Source: an uncultured Erysipelotrichaceae bacterium
Lineage (GTDB): Bacteria; Bacillota_I; Bacilli_A; RF39; UBA660
Direction of reading: 5' to 3'
Length of the DNA stretch: 43,547 nucleotides
Assembly (NCBI GenBank): GCA_902795975.1
Contig: CADBNE010000062.1
Span: forward strand, 1 to 43,547
Of the stretch, positions 9,207-42,915 are shown one piece after another. A program made the position numbers and the translations under genes. The notes beneath the pieces are model-generated. The model had not been told where the DNA came from, searched no databases, and saw only the letters and a list, made by a program, of their open reading frames with translations. Each line of letters begins with the position of its first letter. The stretch's first letter is position 1.

Positions 9207-9786
9207 AATGCCATTTTTATATAGAACAGGAAGATTCTTGTTAACACCATTATTTAAATTTTATTATAAACCAACAGTAATAGGTAAAGAGAATATACCC
9301 TCAAATGGTTCAGTTGTAATAGCAGGTAATCATAAACATTTATATGATCAATTCTTAACAGTTATATCTACTAAAAGATTTGTTACTTATATGGCTAAAA
9401 GAGAATATTTTGATTCTAAAAAAACTAAGTGGTTTTTTAAGGGTACTGGATGTATATCAGTAGATAGAAGTATACATGATGAGAATGCTAAAGCAAGCGC
9501 TATAGATGTATTAGATAGTGGAAATGCATTAGGTATATTTCCTGAAGGTACTAGAAATAAAACAGATGAATTCTTATTACCATTTAAATTTGGAGCAGTT
9601 TCAATGGCAAAGAAAACTGATTCATATATATTACCATTTGGTATAACAGGTGATTATAAATTTAGAAGTAATAATCTTACTATTAGATTTGGTAAACCAT
9701 TTAAAGTAGGAAATATGAATTTAGTAGATGCTAATGAAAAACTATATAGAGAAGTAGAAAAATTAATGAAACAAAATATAGAGTAA
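9196..9786 (+). CDS. plsC: 1-acyl-sn-glycerol-3-phosphate acyltransferase (PlsC family), copy 2
   Basis: About 196 residues with intact motifs: GNHKHLYDQ (NHx4D type) and GIFPEGTRN. It is paralogous to copy 1, sharing TVIGKENIP/YIGIENIP and FTGTG/NNMGLIPVDR-type segments. Upstream starts GTG 9184 and ATG 9190 are in frame, but AGGTG at 9182-9186 is best spaced (9 bases) for the ATG at 9196. The gene overlaps the end of the ligase gene by 11 bases, indicating translational coupling. The cleaner motifs suggest this is the canonical enzyme and copy 1 a specialised one. Confidence 0.9.
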   Translation: MKHKMPFLYRTGRFLLTPLFKFYYKPTVIGKENIPSNGSVVIAGNHKHLYDQFLTVISTKRFVTYMAKREYFDSKKTKWFFKGTGCISVDRSIHDENAKASAIDVLDSGNALGIFPEGTRNKTDEFLLPFKFGAVSMAKKTDSYILPFGITGDYKFRSNNLTIRFGKPFKVGNMNLVDANEKLYREVEKLMKQNIE

Positions 9787-11630: not shown

Positions 11631-12386
11631 ATGATAACAATCAAGAGTGAGAAAGAAATTGAATTAATGCGACATGCTGGTATGTTAGTATCTAAAATGC
11701 ATAAATTTATTAAACCATATATTAAAGCAGGAATTACTACACAAGAGTTAGATAGATTATGTGAAAAGTTTATTAGAGATAATGATGCTGTTCCTACTTG
11801 TAAAGGATTTGAAGGTTTTCCTGCTACATTATGTACAAGTGTTAATGATGAGGTAGTTCATGGTATACCAAGTAATTATAAATTAAAAGATGGAGATATA
11901 ATTACTGTAGATGTTGTAATTGGATATAAAGGTTATCAAGGAGATGCTGCATGGACATATGCTGTAGGTAGTATTGATGATGATAAAAAATATTTAATGG
12001 AACATACTGAAAAAGCTTTATATGAAGGTATAAAAATGGTTAAACCAGGAAATAGAATTGGTGATATATCTCATGCAGTAGAAGAATATGCTACAAGTCA
12101 TAATTTAGGTGTAGTACAAGAATTATGTGGACATGGTATAGGACTTGATATGCATGAAGATCCAGATGTACCAAATTTTGGAAAACCAGGAGTAGGACCT
12201 AGACTTAAAGAAGGAATGGTAATTTGTATTGAACCAATGTTAACATTTGGATCTAGAAGAATATATATTTTAGATGATGAATGGACTATTAAAACATTAG
12301 ATGGTTCACCAGCTGCTCATTATGAACATACAGTTTTAGTTACAAAAGATGGATATGAAATTTTAACTCCAAGATTAGATGATTAG
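11631..12386 (+). CDS. map: Methionine aminopeptidase, type I
   Basis: A 251-residue enzyme that removes initiator Met from nascent proteins. The pita-bread metal ligands are visible: Asp in TVDVVIGYKGY, Asp in YQGDAAWTY, His in CGHGIGLDMHE, Glu in CIEPMLTF and Glu in HYEHTVLV. The substrate-gating His is in VVHGIP. Length is the norm for bacterial MetAP type Ia. The ATG directly follows the ASCH stop codon with GGTGAT overlapping, so expression is coupled. The chromosome may hold a second copy; this one is complete. Confidence 0.96.
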   Translation: MITIKSEKEIELMRHAGMLVSKMHKFIKPYIKAGITTQELDRLCEKFIRDNDAVPTCKGFEGFPATLCTSVNDEVVHGIPSNYKLKDGDIITVDVVIGYKGYQGDAAWTYAVGSIDDDKKYLMEHTEKALYEGIKMVKPGNRIGDISHAVEEYATSHNLGVVQELCGHGIGLDMHEDPDVPNFGKPGVGPRLKEGMVICIEPMLTFGSRRIYILDDEWTIKTLDGSPAAHYEHTVLVTKDGYEILTPRLDD

Positions 12387-12411
12387 AAAGAATAAGAAGG
12401 GAATAAATAAT

Positions 12412-13125
12412 ATGATATGTAATAAGTGTGGTACACAAAATAGTGATAATTCTAAATATTGTTTAGGATGTGGAAGTGAATTAACTCCAAATGTTCAACC
12501 AATGAATAATTATAATCAACCTATGTATAATCAACCAGTGCAACAACCAATACAACAACCAGTACAACAAATAGTTCAACAACCAATGAATACTTCTATG
12601 TATAATCAACAACCAGTAAATGGATATGCTCAACCAGTATATCCAATGTATGGACAACAAAAAAAATCTAATATAGGATTAATAGTAGGCATTATAATAG
12701 GTGTTTTAGCACTAGGATTTATTGGATTAGTAGTATTAGGTACAATTGTTACTAAAGCATATCCAGTAGCAGGTAAATGGGATTGTAAATCTTTTGATGG
12801 TAGTGGTGCTAAAGGAGATTATCTAGTTACATTTGATATGAGATATGATAAGAAATTTACTTGGGAAAAATATGGTGATGGTACTAATAACCATGTAAAA
12901 GGAACATATACATTTGAAAAAGTAGATAAATCTAATAATAATACTAAATATAAATATTATAATGTAAAACTAGTTGGTAATGAATATATTAATAATGGTG
13001 TAAAACAAACACAAGCTTATAATGCACAATATGAAATGGGTATTATAGATAATAAAGATGGAAAAAGACAAGCTATATTAATTAATCCATATACATATAG
13101 AATGTATTATTGTTATGAAAGATAA
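12412..13125 (+). CDS. Zinc-ribbon, Q/P-rich, single-pass membrane protein
   Basis: A 237-residue protein. It begins with a zinc ribbon (C3, C6, C17, C20 in CNKCG...YCLGCG). A Gln/Pro/Asn-rich linker of repeated QPVQQP-type units follows (about 27-88), then one transmembrane helix (GLIVGIIIGVLALGFIGLVV) and a C-terminal domain of about 115 residues starting AGKWDCKSF. The cytosolic ribbon and outside C-terminal domain suggest a membrane-tethered regulator or envelope protein; the function is unknown. ATG 12412 is chosen because AAGAAGGG lies 10 bases upstream; the in-frame ATG at 12379 lies in the map gene. It is a paralog of the protein at 22665, which lacks the ribbon. Confidence 0.8.
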   Translation: MICNKCGTQNSDNSKYCLGCGSELTPNVQPMNNYNQPMYNQPVQQPIQQPVQQIVQQPMNTSMYNQQPVNGYAQPVYPMYGQQKKSNIGLIVGIIIGVLALGFIGLVVLGTIVTKAYPVAGKWDCKSFDGSGAKGDYLVTFDMRYDKKFTWEKYGDGTNNHVKGTYTFEKVDKSNNNTKYKYYNVKLVGNEYINNGVKQTQAYNAQYEMGIIDNKDGKRQAILINPYTYRMYYCYER

Positions 13126-16110: not shown

Positions 16111-18009
16111 ATGTTTTTACATAAAATAGATGAAAGAATAAAAATAGTATTATTAGTAATTATATTTCTATTTGTAGTAATAATATTTAAAGTATTTTAT
16201 ATACAAGTAATTAATTATAAAAAATTAAATAAGTATGCGACAAGCTTATGGAGTAGAAATTTACCATTAGAAGCTAATAGAGGTATTATATATGATAGAA
16301 ATGGTACAGTTTTAGCAGGTAATATAACTACTACATCATTAGTATTAATACCTAATCAAATAAAAGATAAAGAATTAACAGCACGTACTTTGTCTACTAT
16401 ATTAAAAACAGATTATAAAGATATGTTATTTCATGTTAGTAAGAAAACATCTATAGAAAGAGTACACCCAGAAGGTAGAAGATTATCTTATGAAATAGCA
16501 GATAAAATAAATAAATTAAAATTACCAGGAGTATATTTAGTAAAAGAATCTAAAAGAAATTATCCATATGATAAATATTTATCACATACATTAGGGTTTG
16601 TTGGTATTGATAATCAAGGTTTAAGTGGTTTAGAACTAATATATGATAATTATCTTACAGGTAGTTATGGTGCTATAAAGTATTTTAGTGATGCTAAAGG
16701 TAGTAAGTTAAATTTAAGTCAAATATATGAACAACCACAAGATGGTATGAATATAACATTAACTATTAATTTTAAAATACAAGAAGCATTAGAAAGAGAA
16801 TTAGATAATGTAATTAATATGTATTCTCCAGAAGGAGCATGGGCTATAGTTATGAATCCAAATACAGGAGAAATACTTGCTATGGCATCAAGACCAAATT
16901 TTTCTCCTACTAGTTATAAAGAATATGATAAAGAATTAATAAATAGAAATTTACCTATATGGATGACATATGAACCAGGATCTACTTTTAAAATTATTTC
17001 TTTAGCTAGTGCTTTAAATGAAAATCTAATAGATTTAGATAATGATCACTTTTATGATTCAGGAAGTGTTAAAGTAGGAGGTGCTACGATACATTGTTGG
17101 CGTCATGGTGGACATGGAGAACAGACTTATTTACAGGTTGTAGAAAATTCATGTAATCCAGGATTTGTTAGTATAGGATTAAAATTAGGTAAAGAAAGAT
17201 TATTTAGTTATTTAGATAAATTTGGCTTTGGTAAGAAGACAGGTATAGAGTTAAGTGGAGAAGAAAATGGAATTATATTTAATGTAAATAAGATAGGGGA
17301 ATTAGAAACAGCTACTACAGCATTTGGACAAGGTGTATCAGTAACAGCTTTACAACAAGTAGTAGCAGTATCTGCTGCTGTAAATGGAGGAATACTATAT
17401 AAGCCATATATAGTTAAAAGTATTAATGAACCAGTTACTAATCAGGTAATAGTAGAAAATAAACCAACTAAAATTAGACAAGTAATATCTAAAGAAGCTA
17501 GTGATAAGGTAAAATATGCATTAGAAAGTGTAGTAGCTAGAGGTACAGGACATAATGCTTATATACCAGATTATAGAGTAGGGGGAAAGACAGGTACAGC
17601 TCAAAAAGTAAAAGATGGAGTATATATGCAAGGTAATTATATTACTTCTTTTATAGGTATATTACCATCTAATTCACCAGAGGTAGTTGTATATTTAGCA
17701 GTAGATAATGCTAAAGGTGTTACTCAGTATGGAGGTACAGTTTCAGCACCTATAGTTAAATCTTTAATGAAATCTATTATAGATATATTAGATATAGAAC
17801 CAGATCCTAATGGTATAGAAAAAGAAGATAATTATATAGATAAAAAATATGTAACAGTACCTAATGTAGTAGGTATGGATATTAAAAAAGCTAGAAAAGC
17901 ATTAAAAGGATTTAAAATAAAAGAAGAAGGAAAAGGAAAAGTATTATATCAATCACCAAGTGATACTAAAATAGAAGAAGGAGGAATAGTAAGATTATAC
18001 TTAAAATGA
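16111..18009 (+). CDS. Class B penicillin-binding protein (PBP2/SpoVD/FtsI type) with PASTA domain
   Basis: A 632-residue D,D-transpeptidase for peptidoglycan cross-linking, anchored by one N-terminal helix (about 11-33). The pedestal region has the EANRGIIYDRNG motif (54-65). The transpeptidase motifs are complete: STFK (Ser291-Lys294), SCN (347-349) and KTGTAQ (493-498). A single PASTA domain (about 575-632, VPNVVGMDIKKARKAL...) ends the protein. A TATAAT at 16091-16096 would give a very short leader; the ribosome site is GGTGAT. The stop is TGA, the only TGA stop in the window. It may be the divisome FtsI or a SpoVD-like enzyme; with no mur/fts genes beside it, I cannot choose. Confidence 0.94.
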   Translation: MFLHKIDERIKIVLLVIIFLFVVIIFKVFYIQVINYKKLNKYATSLWSRNLPLEANRGIIYDRNGTVLAGNITTTSLVLIPNQIKDKELTARTLSTILKTDYKDMLFHVSKKTSIERVHPEGRRLSYEIADKINKLKLPGVYLVKESKRNYPYDKYLSHTLGFVGIDNQGLSGLELIYDNYLTGSYGAIKYFSDAKGSKLNLSQIYEQPQDGMNITLTINFKIQEALERELDNVINMYSPEGAWAIVMNPNTGEILAMASRPNFSPTSYKEYDKELINRNLPIWMTYEPGSTFKIISLASALNENLIDLDNDHFYDSGSVKVGGATIHCWRHGGHGEQTYLQVVENSCNPGFVSIGLKLGKERLFSYLDKFGFGKKTGIELSGEENGIIFNVNKIGELETATTAFGQGVSVTALQQVVAVSAAVNGGILYKPYIVKSINEPVTNQVIVENKPTKIRQVISKEASDKVKYALESVVARGTGHNAYIPDYRVGGKTGTAQKVKDGVYMQGNYITSFIGILPSNSPEVVVYLAVDNAKGVTQYGGTVSAPIVKSLMKSIIDILDIEPDPNGIEKEDNYIDKKYVTVPNVVGMDIKKARKALKGFKIKEEGKGKVLYQSPSDTKIEEGGIVRLYLK

Positions 18010-19379: not shown

Positions 19380-19388
19380 TGATATAAT
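19380..19388 (+). promoter_or_regulatory. Extended -10 element TGATATAAT
   Basis: TGA plus TATAAT (19383-19388). It gives a predicted start near 19395, leaving a ~10-base leader before the ATG at 19405. Confidence 0.55.
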
Positions 19389-19404
19389 GAGTATGGTGAA
19401 AGAT

Positions 19405-19884
19405 ATGATTAGTAAGACATCAAAGAATATAGCAGAAATAAATTGGAATTCTACTAATGATAAGCTAAATGAATTAGCTAATTATTATATAAATTTATTT
19501 GATAATATTAATGAAGTAATAATAGATGAGTTTGAAAAAAATATTAATAGTATACTTAAAGGTATTAAGATAGAAGACTATATAAGAATGAATTGGTGTC
19601 CTATGGAATTATCATTAAAATATGAAAAATTATTATCTTTAAAAAATAATTTTTATTATAATTTAGGTAATAAAAAAACATATCAAAAAAATATTTGTGA
19701 GAAGGAGGAGGATACAGTGATTAAGATAGAAAAAGAACAAAATGATATAGAACAATATATTAACTCTATTAAAGAAGCTGTTAAATTAAGAGAAATGCAA
19801 TTATCTGATTATGTACCTCCAGAAGACCCTGAAGAAGATTATCCAGAAATACCAGAAGAATTAGCAAAGTTATTAAATGATTAA
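19405..19884 (+). CDS. Hypothetical protein, tandem paralog 1
   Basis: A 159-residue soluble helical protein with no family I recognise. In-frame ATGs at 19387 and 19393 overlap or abut the -10 box, so they should not be in the transcript. ATG 19405 has GGTGAA upstream and aligns exactly with the start of paralog 2. Shared blocks are KNIAEINW/ENIKEINW, GIKIEDYIRMxWCPxEL (near 54-70) and a C-terminal IPxELxxLLxD tail. The middle is variable. The constant tail motif looks like a short interaction peptide. It is separated from its paralog by a terminator and a new promoter, so the two may be regulated differently. Confidence 0.72.
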   Translation: MISKTSKNIAEINWNSTNDKLNELANYYINLFDNINEVIIDEFEKNINSILKGIKIEDYIRMNWCPMELSLKYEKLLSLKNNFYYNLGNKKTYQKNICEKEEDTVIKIEKEQNDIEQYINSIKEAVKLREMQLSDYVPPEDPEEDYPEIPEELAKLLND

Positions 19885-19968: not shown

Positions 19969-20481
19969 ATGATATTGACTCGCACAACAGAGAATATAAA
20001 AGAAATTAATTGGTCAAATACAAATACATTATTAGATGAAACTGCAGATTACTATTTAAATAAATTTGAAAATAAGATTACTGAACCACTATTACATGAA
20101 TTAGATAGATCATTAAATCATGTACTTAGAGGTATTAAAATAGAAGATTATATAAGAATGGCTTGGTGTCCTATAGAATTAGCTGCTAAATGCGATAGAC
20201 TGTTATTAATGAAAAATAAGTTTTATGCTAAAGAAAGAGATACATCTATTATGATTAAGACTTTACCTAGTATACCAGCAGATTATACAATAGAAGTAGA
20301 AGAAGTAAATACTATTAAATCTAATAACTTAAGTTATGATGATATCGTAAATCAATTTAGTACTACAGAATTAAAAAAATTAGGAATGGTAGAAGATACT
20401 ACAGAAGAAGATTTAGAGACTATACCAAGTGAATTATCATCATTATTAGGTGATGATGAAATAAGAATAAAAGGAATCTAA
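19969..20481 (+). CDS. Hypothetical protein, tandem paralog 2
   Basis: A 170-residue soluble protein homologous to the one at 19405: TENIKEINWSNTN, LRGIKIEDYIRMAWCPIEL and the C-terminal IPSELSSLLGDDE. GGTGAT precedes the ATG by 5-6 bases. Shared residues include a Trp-Cys-Pro in the core and two conserved Arg/Lys clusters. No membrane helix or signal peptide is seen. The pair looks like a local duplication; no function can be proposed from the sequence. The his leader promoter starts just after its end, and no terminator is obvious between them. Confidence 0.72.
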   Translation: MILTRTTENIKEINWSNTNTLLDETADYYLNKFENKITEPLLHELDRSLNHVLRGIKIEDYIRMAWCPIELAAKCDRLLLMKNKFYAKERDTSIMIKTLPSIPADYTIEVEEVNTIKSNNLSYDDIVNQFSTTELKKLGMVEDTTEEDLETIPSELSSLLGDDEIRIKGI

Positions 20482-20491
20482 CAAATGATAT

Positions 20492-20520
20492 TTGACTTAA
20501 TTAATAAAATGTGTTAATTT
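20492..20520 (+). promoter_or_regulatory. Promoter of the hisG-hisS leader
   Basis: TTGACT (20492-20497), 17-base spacer, TAATTT (20515-20520) with TGt upstream (extended -10). The predicted start is near 20527, just before the AAAGGGAG ribosome site of the leader peptide. Confidence 0.55.
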
Positions 20521-20544
20521 ATTTTTAACGAAAGGGAGATTATT

Positions 20545-20607
20545 ATGAAAAAATTATATATAAATGTACATCATCATAATATTCTGCACTTGGACTTACG
20601 ACATTAA
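20545..20607 (+). CDS. Histidine leader peptide (20 aa)
   Basis: A short frame starting ATG with AAAGGGAG (20531-20538) 6 bases upstream. It encodes 20 residues, of which five are His: three in a row at residues 9-11 (CAT CAT CAT, 20569-20577), then His15 and His20, ending TAA at 20605-20607. A run of His codons upstream of hisG is the hallmark of a translation-coupled attenuator. A ribosome short of charged His-tRNA would stall at residues 9-11. The frame overlaps the antiterminator segment (20586-20595) and the first hairpin, as expected for this mechanism. Confidence 0.85.
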   Translation: MKKLYINVHHHNILHLDLRH

Positions 20608-20628
20608 AATGTCGCAATGTACAAGTGC
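20586..20628 (+). promoter_or_regulatory. Antiterminator of the his attenuator
   Basis: GCACTTGGAC (20586-20595) can pair with GTACAAGTGC (20619-20628), nine pairs around one G.A mismatch. It encloses a perfect hairpin CGACAT (20599-20604) / ATGTCG (20609-20614). The second partner is the 5' arm of terminator 1, so the two structures exclude each other. A ribosome stalled on the triple-His codons would leave 20586-20595 free; one reaching the stop codon would cover it. Confidence 0.75.
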
Positions 20629-20653
20629 TATTTGTGGTGCTTGTACATTTTTT
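20616..20653 (+). terminator. his attenuator, terminator 1
   Basis: 5' arm 20616-20628 (AATGTACAAGTGC) pairs over 13 positions, including two wobbles, with 20637-20649 (GTGCTTGTACATT), loop of 8, then a T-run. It lies between the leader peptide and hisG. Confidence 0.85.
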
Positions 20654-20665
20654 ATATTTTAATAT

Positions 20666-20703
20666 AAAAAGCTATTACAAGTACCATGTAATAGCTTTTT
20701 AAT
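20666..20703 (+). terminator. his attenuator, terminator 2
   Basis: Perfect 14-bp stem AAAAAGCTATTACA (20666-20679) / TGTAATAGCTTTTT (20687-20700), 7-base loop. ACAAGTACC (20677-20685) in its loop side can pair with GGTGCTTGT (20636-20644), the 3' arm of terminator 1, which would link the two terminators. Confidence 0.8.
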
Positions 20704-20724
20704 TTGCAAGAAAGGATGAGTATT

Positions 20725-21321
20725 ATGATAACAATTGCTTTATCAAAAGGTAGAATAGAAGCAAATTTTTATAAAATATTATTAGATAAGAATATAACTA
20801 AAAATATAATAAATCCAAATAGAAGTTTAAAAATAAATGTAGATGATAATATAGAATTATTATTAGTTAAGCCAGTAGATGTTATTAAATTAGTTAGTTG
20901 TAAGTATGCTAATGTCGGAATAGTAGGAAGTGATTCTATAGAAGAAGAAAATGATAAAAATATTGTAGAATTATTAGATTTAGATATTGGTAAATGTTCT
21001 TTTGCACTTTCAACTATACCAGGAGTTAAAATAGAGGATATTAAAAGTATAGCTACTAAGTATCCAAATATTGCTAAAAGATTAATTAATGATTTAGGTA
21101 TTAATTCTAATATAGTTAAAATGGAAGGTTCACTTGAGGTAGCACCTATAATTAATTATGCAGATGCAATAGTAGATTTAGTAGAAACAGGTAATACATT
21201 AAAAGCTAATGGACTTATTATATTAAAAAGACTATTAGAAATATCAACTAGAGTAATTACAAATGAAGATAGTATTGATGATTATGAAGTAAAAAGATTT
21301 ATAAAGAGAATGGAGAGTTAA
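20725..21321 (+). CDS. hisG: ATP phosphoribosyltransferase, short form
   Basis: About 198 residues. HisG joins ATP and PRPP in the first step of histidine synthesis. The start MITIALSKGRI, the VKPVDVIKLV segment, VGIVGSDSIEEE and the PRPP-site region NYADAIVDLVETGNTLKANGL are family-typical. The length marks the short form, which lacks the C-terminal regulatory domain and in other organisms works with HisZ, a HisRS paralog. The ribosome site AAAGGA (20710-20715) fits ATG 20725; the in-frame ATG at 20716 is too close. It sits behind a His leader attenuator and is followed after one base by hisS. No other his biosynthesis gene is in the window. Confidence 0.93.
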   Translation: MITIALSKGRIEANFYKILLDKNITKNIINPNRSLKINVDDNIELLLVKPVDVIKLVSCKYANVGIVGSDSIEEENDKNIVELLDLDIGKCSFALSTIPGVKIEDIKSIATKYPNIAKRLINDLGINSNIVKMEGSLEVAPIINYADAIVDLVETGNTLKANGLIILKRLLEISTRVITNEDSIDDYEVKRFIKRMES

Positions 21322-22610: not shown

Positions 22611-22639
22611 TTGATAAATTCTAATATAAATGTTATTCT
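22611..22639 (+). promoter_or_regulatory. Promoter of the Q/P-rich membrane protein gene
   Basis: TTGATA (22611-22616), 17-base spacer, TATTCT (22634-22639) with TGt upstream. Confidence 0.45.
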
Positions 22640-22664
22640 TAATATATATAGAAGGAGAGTTAAT

Positions 22665-23237
22665 ATGGATAATAATCAATTTAATAATCAAAATAATTAT
22701 GGTCAACCTGTACAACCTACATATCAACAACCAGTACAACAACCTGTATATGGTCAACCAGCATATCAACAACCAATGCAACAACCTGTATATGGTCAAC
22801 AACCAAAGAAAGCTAATACTGGATTAATAGTTGGTATTGTTATTGCTGTTATAGTATTAGTAGGTGTTGTTACTACAGTTGGTAAAGGTGGTTCATCTAA
22901 GAAAATTGATGGTAAATGGGTATGTACTGGAAGTAAAGGTACATTAACTATTGATGCAGATGCATCTGCTAAAACAGTTAAAATGAAAGTTGGTGTATTT
23001 AGTATAGATGCTAAATATAAAGCTTCAGGAACTGTTAAACCAGCATCTAAAAAAGATGGATACAAATATACACAATATGTATTTACTAGTGGAAGTAATT
23101 CACAAGGAACTACTTATTCATCTTCTAAGAAAGTAGGATTTGTATTTGGTATTGATCCTAACAATGATAAAGTAGGTCATTATGTAGATAGTACTAAAGC
23201 AGGTTCTATGGAATTTAATTGTACTAAAACAAACTAA
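22665..23237 (+). CDS. Q/P-rich single-pass membrane protein, paralog of 12412
   Basis: A 190-residue protein. Residues 1-46 are Asn/Gln/Pro/Tyr-rich, including two copies of a 14-residue YQQP(V/M)QQPVYGQ unit. Then comes PKKANTGLIVGIVIAVIVLVG, a transmembrane helix with a positive N-side, and a C-terminal domain of about 120 residues starting DGKWVCTGS. The architecture and the QQxKKxNxGLIVGI and GKWxC segments match the protein at 12412, but the zinc ribbon is missing. AGGAG is 7 bases before the ATG. The C-terminal part is beta-rich and probably extracellular; the function is unknown. Confidence 0.78.
   Translation: MDNNQFNNQNNYGQPVQPTYQQPVQQPVYGQPAYQQPMQQPVYGQQPKKANTGLIVGIVIAVIVLVGVVTTVGKGGSSKKIDGKWVCTGSKGTLTIDADASAKTVKMKVGVFSIDAKYKASGTVKPASKKDGYKYTQYVFTSGSNSQGTTYSSSKKVGFVFGIDPNNDKVGHYVDSTKAGSMEFNCTKTN
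22720..22803 (+). repeat. Two 42-bp coding repeats in the Q/P-rich region
   Basis: Two adjacent near-identical 42-base units (starting TATCAACAACCA at about 22720 and 22762) encode the repeated YQQPxQQPVYGQ segment. Slippage could change copy number. Confidence 0.7.
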
Positions 23238-41067: not shown

Positions 41068-41634
41068 ATGAAAAATGTAAGAAAAATAATATTTTTATTA
41101 ATATTATTAATACCTATATCTGTAAATGCTAATATTATGTGTAAAGATGGTACTAGAAGTGATAATTGTCTTGATTGCCATAGAGGATGTTGTTCTCATC
41201 ATGGAGGATGTGCTAGTAGTAAAAGTGTTAATTCTAGTATAAGCAAAAAGAATTCTGTTAAAAAAAGTACTAATAGTACAACTAAGGCAGTAAGTAGCAA
41301 AAAGAGTATAAGTAGTACTAAAAAGAGTAATACAAGAAATAATTCTAGTAGTAAATCTAATATAAGTTCTAAATCAAATACTTCTTCAAAAAGTAATACT
41401 TCTATAAGTAATAAAGTAAGTAACGAAAAGAGTAATAGTACAAGTAATGATACTAGTAGTAATAAGAGTAATAGTGTAAGTAATAAAGAGAAAAGTAATG
41501 ATATAAAAGATGATATATATACTTCTATATATAAAAATAATAATTCAAACAATTCTGATGGGATATGGGCTTTAATTATAGTTGCTACAGGTACAGTAGC
41601 AGGGTGTTATGCTTATCAAAAGAGAAATGAATAA
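41068..41634 (+). CDS. Secreted/surface Ser-Asn-Lys-rich protein with Cys/His motif
   Basis: A 188-residue protein. It has a signal peptide (about 1-22, cleavage likely after VNANA-type VNA) and then a Cys/His cluster, CKDGTRSDNCLDCHRGCCSHHGG, of which the second half CHRGCCSHHGGC is like the CSHHGG motif seen in small secreted bacterial domains. About 110 residues of Ser/Asn/Lys/Thr low complexity follow, then one hydrophobic helix (GIWALIIVATGTVAGCYAY) and a short basic tail. It looks like a membrane-anchored stalk with an outward metal- or disulfide-bearing tip. Function unknown. RBS AAAGGAG. Confidence 0.75.
   Translation: MKNVRKIIFLLILLIPISVNANIMCKDGTRSDNCLDCHRGCCSHHGGCASSKSVNSSISKKNSVKKSTNSTTKAVSSKKSISSTKKSNTRNNSSSKSNISSKSNTSSKSNTSISNKVSNEKSNSTSNDTSSNKSNSVSNKEKSNDIKDDIYTSIYKNNNSNNSDGIWALIIVATGTVAGCYAYQKRNE
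41218..41500 (+). repeat. Ser/Asn/Lys low-complexity coding region
   Basis: Runs of AGTAAT/AAATCTAAT-type codons (Ser-Asn-Lys) that encode the stalk, including KSNTSSKSNTS near 41385. Copy-number change by slippage is likely. Confidence 0.7.
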
Positions 41635-41652
41635 AATTCATTTCTTTTTTAT
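41623..41652 (+). terminator. Intrinsic terminator
   Basis: Perfect 10-bp stem AGAAATGAAT (41623-41632) / ATTCATTTCT (41636-41645), loop AAA, T-run. The stop codon 41632-41634 is at the loop. Confidence 0.83.
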
Positions 41653-41706: not shown

Positions 41707-42915
41707 ATGTATACATATAGAGTTTTAAATAAGAATGATATAGATGTAAAAAATAATGGTATTATAGCTAAAGTACCTGTTGATGATTCTACATTAATAA
41801 AGGATGCATTAACTAAAGTACCTAGCCATTTACAAGTTGGTTCTTCAAAATCTAGCGCTTGGATATCTACATCAGTATCATTAACTACAGTATCAGAACA
41901 CTATGCTATTCCATATACACCTGGAGAAGTAAGAACTCCTTTAGCTGTAATAGATAATTGTGCTGAAATAAATAAAAATATATCTATATTTGAACCAATT
42001 AATAATCAAAAAGTTATTGTTAATGTTAGTACTGAGAAAGAATTAGCTAATTCTATGAGAAATCTTTTAATATGTTTAAGTAATGGAGTCTTCTGTGTTC
42101 AAAAAGATATTTTAAAAATATTTGATAATAAAATTAAAGTAGGTAAAAGACTTCCCCTTAGTAGTAAAAGAAATCCTAATGAATTAATTATAGTTGAAGC
42201 AATAAAAAATGAAAAAAAATATCCTGGTATTAAGTATGGTTTATTATCAAAAGAAGTAGTAGTCTTAAATAAGATAGATAAAGAAGATATAGTAAAGGTA
42301 TTAAATCCATTAGAAATTGATATAGCATACGCTATAGCTAAATATCATGAATTAAATAATATTGAATTTGATATAGAAGATTTTATAAATAATAAAATAA
42401 ATAATAGAAATAATGTATTGGTAGATAATGGTATTGAATATAAATTGTTTTATGACATGTATATAAATTGTTTATTTACTAGTGATATAGTGAAAAAAAT
42501 ATATGAAGAGAATAATAATGATAAATCTATAGATATATTAGAAATATATTCTTATATTAAAAATATAAAAAGAAATATTATAAATAGATATTTAGCTAAT
42601 ATGGGTTATAATTTAGAATTTATCCCTATATTAGAGGATTATATTTACATAATGAGAATAGGTAATATTAATACAAATAAATTAAGAAATATAAAAACAT
42701 ATTGTTATAATACCAAATTACCAAATGTTGAATATAATGCTGATGCATTTATTGATCCAAATGTAAGAAAAACATATTCATATGTATTTGAATATCAGGA
42801 AAATAATCCTTTATATGCATTAGGTACATATAAAGGGAATGACGAGATAACTGATGATATAGCTAAAAAGATTGATGATTATAAAATATTAGAAAAAATA
42901 AATATAATAAAGTAA
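41707..42915 (+). CDS. Possible ADP-ribosyltransferase-fold protein, 402 aa
   Basis: The N-terminal ~85 residues have the shape of the R-STS ADP-ribosyltransferase fold: an early TYRVL with Arg5, a helix with DSTLIKDALTKVP, then SAWISTSVSLTTVSEHYAIPY (51-70, quoted in parts: SAWISTSVSLTT, VSEHYAIPY) and a TPLAVIDN strand. The Ser-Thr-Ser step at 54-56 fits. A catalytic Glu is not identified with certainty. Residues 100-402 are an uncharacterised helical region. There is no signal peptide, so a cytosolic or conflict-type role is possible. It is monocistronic, with AAGAGG as RBS, and directly after the polysaccharide locus. Confidence 0.6.
   Translation: MYTYRVLNKNDIDVKNNGIIAKVPVDDSTLIKDALTKVPSHLQVGSSKSSAWISTSVSLTTVSEHYAIPYTPGEVRTPLAVIDNCAEINKNISIFEPINNQKVIVNVSTEKELANSMRNLLICLSNGVFCVQKDILKIFDNKIKVGKRLPLSSKRNPNELIIVEAIKNEKKYPGIKYGLLSKEVVVLNKIDKEDIVKVLNPLEIDIAYAIAKYHELNNIEFDIEDFINNKINNRNNVLVDNGIEYKLFYDMYINCLFTSDIVKKIYEENNNDKSIDILEIYSYIKNIKRNIINRYLANMGYNLEFIPILEDYIYIMRIGNINTNKLRNIKTYCYNTKLPNVEYNADAFIDPNVRKTYSYVFEYQENNPLYALGTYKGNDEITDDIAKKIDDYKILEKINIIK

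Follow-up and report, generated by a model that had tools for sequence, protein, structure and literature searches.

Upstream of the hisG-hisS gene pair of a very AT-rich uncultured bacterium (GC 22.9% in the window, the whole 43,547-nucleotide stretch of DNA analysed here), a leader of about 198 bases holds a short His-rich frame followed by two hairpins, which raises the question of how these parts control the two genes and which hairpin stops transcription. A preliminary description of the same DNA had proposed a leader-peptide attenuator with two linked terminators. Our analysis indicated that the leader very likely places hisG-hisS under a transcription attenuator of the his A-F type that is ribosome-mediated and responds to histidine. 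The features of the locus are collected in Table 1.

Table 1. Features of the his leader and the genes behind it (positions in the window).
Feature	Position	Strand	Basis
Candidate promoter TTGACT - 17 nt - TAATTT, TG one base before the second hexamer	20492..20520	+	predicted from sequence
Putative leader-frame ribosome-binding site, GGGAG (in AAAGGGAG, 20531-20538)	20534..20538	+	sequence
Leader peptide MKKLYINVHHHNILHLDLRH, 20 codons, ATG 20545, TAA 20605-20607	20545..20607	+	sequence
Segment A, spans the three His codons; pairs with D (20632-20650)	20562..20579	+	folds, duplex energy
Segment B, GCACUUG; pairs with C (20622-20628)	20586..20592	+	folds
Small hairpin P between B and C (CGACAU UAAA AUGUCG), stop codon in loop	20599..20614	+	folds
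T1, C:D hairpin (C 20616-20630, D 20635-20649), 15 bp, loop UUUG, tail UUUUAUAUUU	20616..20649	+	terminator scan, folds
Segment D (20629-20649), antiterminator strand 20629-20645; pairs with T2 20676-20693	20629..20645	+	folds
T1 U-tail; 20648-20657 alternatively pairs with 20662-20671 (antiterminator fold)	20648..20661	+	folds
T2, E:F hairpin, 15 bp	20665..20701	+	folds
Putative hisG ribosome-binding site AAAGGATG	20711..20718	+	sequence
hisG, short-form ATP phosphoribosyltransferase, 198 aa	20725..21321	+	TIGR00070, 154.1 bits (cut-off 75.75)
hisS, histidine--tRNA ligase, 425 aa	21323..22600	+	TIGR00442, 352 bits (cut-off 286.75)

On the hisS frame, the listed hisZ models all scored below their own cut-offs. 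Short-form HisG elsewhere requires HisZ; here it adjoins a full HisS, and the frames inspected in the window included no hisZ. HisS might take over the part of HisZ. The gene upstream ends at 20481, just ahead of the leader. It is the second of two tandem look-alike frames (19387-19884 and 19969-20481) that have EINW.NTN and GIKIEDYIRM.WCP.EL in common and gave no NCBIfam match. Two other frames, 12379-13125 and 22611-23237, the latter directly 3' of hisS, encode two similar proteins that are rich in Pro and Gln, seem to be anchored in the membrane and have QQPVQQ-type repeats, and 16111-18009 encodes a SpoVD-type penicillin-binding protein (691.8 bits, barely above the family cut-off of 688).

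Transcription would be expected to start near 20527, behind a candidate promoter that did not reach the 9-of-12 threshold used to scan for consensus promoters. The 20-codon frame with three consecutive His codons and two more, which the preliminary description had reported, was borne out: His occupies codons 9, 10, 11, 15 and 20, and CAT CAT CAT lies at 20569-20577. This is the only CAYCAYCAY on the plus strand of the 43.5 kb window, the other 10 of the 11 on both strands being on the minus strand. As in his-type (A-F) attenuators, a short frame with consecutive His codons, whose translation is predicted from sequence, precedes the first structural gene.

The leader folded at -52.3 kcal/mol (z = -7.9), which none of 200 shuffles equalled. 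Both hairpins previously placed upstream of hisG-hisS were found, C:D (T1) at -16.7 and E:F (T2) at -16.0 kcal/mol. T1 was among five terminator-like sites between 15000 and 30000 on both strands, while shuffles gave 1.1 +/- 1.1. T2 was absent from the list of the simple terminator scan, we think because its own U-run pairs with its own A-run, and is probably the decisive terminator.

Three alternative pairings involve these hairpins. In A:D, 20562-20570 pairs with 20642-20650 and 20572-20579 with 20632-20639; this pairing of the His codons, like hairpin P, had escaped the preliminary description. When the coding stretch was randomised, 2 of 5000 sequences with permuted codons and none of 5000 with shuffled bases equalled this duplex (-16.9 kcal/mol). 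B:C with P nested reached -17.8 kcal/mol. Since permuting the codons gave an equally good fold in 178 of 5000 cases and shuffling the bases in 59 of 5000, B:C is weak as sole evidence. The 10-base segment 20586-20595 that had been called complementary to the 5' arm of T1 matched 20619-20628 at nine of ten positions rather than in full, seven of them contiguous (GCACUUG:CAAGUGC). The third pairing, D:E, comprises 17 bp with one bulge (20629-20645 with 20676-20693) plus the pairing of the U-tail, 20648-20657 with 20662-20671. It contains the pairing of 20677-20685 with 20636-20644 noted earlier, which was correct but only part of this larger duplex.

D can thus pair either with C, forming T1, or with the loop and 3' arm of T2. 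When C was removed, the probability of T2 was 0.001; a value of 0.001 or less was reached in 20 of 3000 nulls with the inner pairs and loop of T2 randomised, and in 0 of 3000 with the pairs of T1 randomised. Scored by energy gain, 22 and 69 of 3000, respectively, reached the observed D:E value. As a plain duplex, D paired with one of 1176 plus-strand tiles (9473-9511, a chance site) at least as well as with T2. A:D, B:C and D:E taken jointly, at the positions that an attenuator needs, are hard to explain by chance.

To describe the folds in each ribosome state, equilibrium probabilities were calculated with Turner 2004 parameters and a ribosome footprint. The edge of the ribosome is placed about 12-13 bases past the first base of the A-site codon. 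The untranslated leader gave T2 at 0.95, A:D at 0.63 and C:D at 0.31, and with an initiating ribosome A:D, B:C and T2 rose to 0.98, 1.00 and 0.99. With the ribosome at the stop codon, C:D was 0.99-1.00 and T2 0.97-0.98. The choice of footprint mattered here: 20588-20618 gave T2 at 0.97, whereas 20590-20619 gave only 0.24, because the start of C was covered too. Stalling on His1 (edge 20581 or 20582) gave B:C at 0.51-0.53, D:E at 0.57-0.59 and T2 at 0.40-0.42, and stalling on His2 (edge 20584 or 20585) gave 0.62-0.63, 0.70 and 0.29-0.30. On His3, T2 was 0.56 or 0.92, depending on the edge (20587, 20588). The stalled leader has two global folds only 0.3 kcal/mol apart (-38.9 and -39.2). These folds agree with the earlier proposal that a stall lets B take the 5' arm of T1 and frees its 3' half, dismantling T2.

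The comparison of four parameter sets weakened the equilibrium case. For the complete leader with a stall on His2, T2 was 0.29 (Turner 2004), 0.85 (Turner 1999), 0.51 (Andronescu) and 0.90 (Langdon), against, in the same order, 0.99, 1.00, 0.97 and 0.99 with an initiating ribosome, 0.97, 0.99, 0.93 and 0.90 at the stop codon, and 0.95, 0.99, 0.93 and 0.88 when untranslated. The His2 stall therefore lowered T2 relative to the initiating state in all four sets, but in the Langdon set T2 was no lower than at the stop or untranslated. Read-through at equilibrium was favoured only in Turner 2004 and evenly balanced in Andronescu. Default termination of the untranslated leader was seen in silico in every set (T2 0.88-0.99), and the exclusive folds B:C + D:E and C:D + E:F were shifted by the stall to an extent that depended on the set. 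The check proposed beforehand, folding with and without a stalled footprint, thus gave the expected move towards B:C + D:E, with an equilibrium shift of nil in Langdon.

Because the equilibrium of the complete stalled leader favours T2 in two sets and is even in one, read-through would have to be kinetic. In the growing transcript with a His2 stall, B:C was 0.99-1.00 at end 20634, and B:C and D:E were both 0.98-1.00 at ends 20686-20694 in all four sets, before completion of the 3' arm of T2. With the polymerase at the T1 U-tail (end 20655), C:D was favoured despite the stall (0.87-1.00, all four sets), so read-through at T1 hinges on the barrier from B:C to C:D. This barrier was 8.1-11.3 kcal/mol at ends 20655 and 20670 in the four sets, values from a direct-path search being upper estimates. 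With the ribosome at the stop codon, D:E was still 0.72-0.91 at end 20690, and the off state would accordingly need T1 to form first and persist.

From these folds we infer stalling, termination at T1 and T2, a kinetic order of folding and a response to histidine in the cell. In an untranslated or just-initiated leader, A:D and B:C would keep D from T2, so that T2 forms and transcription ends. When His-tRNA is plentiful, the ribosome would reach the stop codon and hide B, C:D (T1) would tie up D, and T2 would form; T1 with its U-tail may already halt some polymerases. When His-tRNA is scarce, a ribosome stalled on His1 or His2 would hide A and leave B exposed, so that B captures C and D is freed. 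D would then pair with the loop and 3' arm of T2, and the T1 U-tail with the A-tract before T2, leaving T2 too late to form, and hisG-hisS would be transcribed. The kinetic order would be B:C first, surviving past T1, followed by capture of the T2 loop and 3' arm by D.

Related proteins and leaders were also compared. HisG relatives at 66-78% identity (P0002-P0010) were metagenome proteins; the HisS relatives included proteins 93% (P0126) and 87% (P0127) identical and some at 65% named 'Bacilli bacterium'. Equal longest contigs for P0007 and P0136 (14544) and for P0025 and P0131 (13466) suggest that hisG and hisS are kept together in relatives. A HisG search of genome contigs found two distant loci (45% and 31%), and viral contigs gave only four HisG-like fragments at 31% (L035-L038, IMG/VR). 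In the phylum of Clostridium sp. 1001270J_160509_D11 (genome G001, locus L001), a strain that NCBI places in Clostridiaceae, 313 of 398 genomes had a HisG match, the best-scoring being 43-45% identical. HisS had no match at E<=1e-120 in 219 genomes, and at E<=1e-110 it had one in 398 genomes of the class of G358 (46% identical); none of the genomes covered was a close relative of the window, whose lineage may lie outside this phylum as grouped in these searches. A three-His-codon run was present in one of 30 regions upstream of HisG loci of the phylum (L005, same genome as L001), regions that span only 1500 bases, so that leaders further up can be missed.

In the family of G001, 23 of 71 genomes had a HisZ match, and 19 of these loci (L039-L057) carry a leader frame that has a run of three to five His codons and ends 149-349 bases before the match. 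The other four (L058-L061), whose matches were 27-33% identical, were without such a frame. The 19 leaders, 17 of them distinct, run in the order His run, B (AGGGATTGT in most), small hairpin, C, D and terminator. The window has the same order of His run, B, hairpin, C, D and E:F, with A:D, and folds as A:D + B:C + T2, like the RNAalifold consensus of the 19 (A:D + B:C + E:F), where double-sided change affects 3 of the 32 pairs.

For C:D + E:F of the comparators, 96.0% of cells were standard pairs, and the cells with double-sided change (12) and the covariation score exceeded all 500 shuffles; the pairs with double-sided change (3) and the pair types (10) were as high in 271 and 419 of 500 shuffles. 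A:D + B:C gave 95.4% standard pairs, two double-sided cells (8/500 shuffles) and one such pair (171/500). Support from covariation is limited because several of these measures were equalled by many shuffles. On stalling, E:F fell below 0.5 in only one of the 19 (L044). In none of the 19 was C:D followed by a U-tail (no more than 4 T in 8, against 6 in the window). A covariance model of the 19 leaders (R1), run with filters off, gave 47 matches in the window. The best, 20569-20701 (22.2 bits, E 0.0049), begins at the first His codon and was missed by the default-filter search. The second and third, 42765-42844 on the minus strand (19.6 bits) and 41574-41652 on the plus strand (18.6 bits), are probably chance matches.

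The tail of C:D bears on the two-step switch of the preliminary description, under which, taken literally, regulation would act chiefly at terminator T1, with T2 linked to it as a further terminator and both halting the polymerase. The U-tail of T1 is better than that of T2, D links the two hairpins, and since no comparator has such a tail, it may have been selected. As the main gate, however, T1 would be poorly designed, with C:D favoured under the stall when the polymerase reaches its tail, and the tail is otherwise used, by pairing in the antiterminator. We regard this reading as possible rather than probable: the linked folds that it predicted stand, while the leader follows the his A-F design with T2 probably decisive, and T1 may terminate as well. 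That C:D and E:F are both working terminators sharing one strand, with one stall opening two gates and controlling hisG and hisS, seems rather doubtful to us.

The two hairpins might also be plain constitutive terminators shielding hisG-hisS from the genes before them, with the frame rich in His by accident. Their terminator-like form and the gene end just upstream would suit such a role, but they sit behind a frame with a Shine-Dalgarno sequence and a His run, the A:D, B:C and D:E complementarities are above controls, and, with no other promoter evident, constitutive terminators at this place would shut off hisG-hisS, which makes insulation very unlikely. A T-box, the type of control most often found at histidine genes of Lactobacillales according to Ashniev et al. 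2022 (PMC9413887), or another known riboswitch is extremely improbable, as no Rfam family reached its gathering score in the window. The 23 Rfam matches at E<=5 in 20480-20760 were all below gathering and included neither T-box nor His_leader.

The attenuator preferred here has known counterparts. In the Salmonella his leader (PMC4046918), B:C and D:E form on stalling and E:F otherwise, and the untranslated leader terminates. The Salmonella and E. coli attenuator resembles ours in its consecutive-His leader, in B:C + D:E on a stall and in E:F by default or on run-through. It has seven consecutive His where the window has three, and its A pairs with B rather than D. Unlike it, the window has a U-tail after C:D, D pairs mainly with the loop and 3' arm of T2, and the targets are hisG-hisS. 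The leader matched the Rfam family His_leader (RF00514) neither at gathering nor at E<=5. Ashniev et al. 2022 (PMC9413887) likewise report no RF00514 match for Firmicutes, and predict attenuators of his operons for the B. cereus group, for Peptostreptococcaceae/Lutispora and for Erysipelotrichales.

The comparators L039-L057 probably correspond to the Peptostreptococcaceae/Lutispora group. They share with the window the order of parts and the A:D + B:C + E:F consensus, but precede hisZ, lack a U-tail after C:D and show borderline sequence similarity only. The Erysipelotrichales candidates (PMC9413887), likewise with a His-rich leader and alternative hairpins, may belong to a lineage nearer to that of the window. 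For bacilli, Naville and Gautheret 2010 (PMC2965389) predicted that hisS* and hisZ are preceded by a His leader peptide; this system also senses His through a peptide before a hisS-family gene in Bacillota, though there before a second hisS paralogue (hisS*), whereas hisS here is in an operon with hisG. In the S. aureus ilv-leu leader, a Leu-rich attenuator peptide has experimental support (PMC5794164); it too is a peptide attenuator in Bacillota, but it senses leucine and differs in genes and sequence.

Peptide-based his attenuation in Bacillota, including before hisS-type genes, has thus already been published (PMC2965389, PMC9413887), and the preliminary view of it as typical of Proteobacteria is outdated. 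A search of the open-access literature found no paper on tandem terminators together with a leader peptide and attenuation. Three things are new within the reach of these searches: the lineage concerned, hisG-hisS as the target, and a C:D hairpin that resembles a terminator.

The U-tail of C:D leads to a definite prediction, two nested stops with one stall opening both. If both hairpins do terminate, the U-tail that enables termination at C:D would also sequester the A-tract of the second terminator, and the circuit would govern the first enzyme of histidine synthesis together with the synthetase whose product is sensed. The mechanism itself is textbook; the finding places peptide-based His sensing in an uncultured lineage of 23% GC, ahead of a hisG-hisS pair, and fits the view that such attenuators arose or spread repeatedly in Bacillota.
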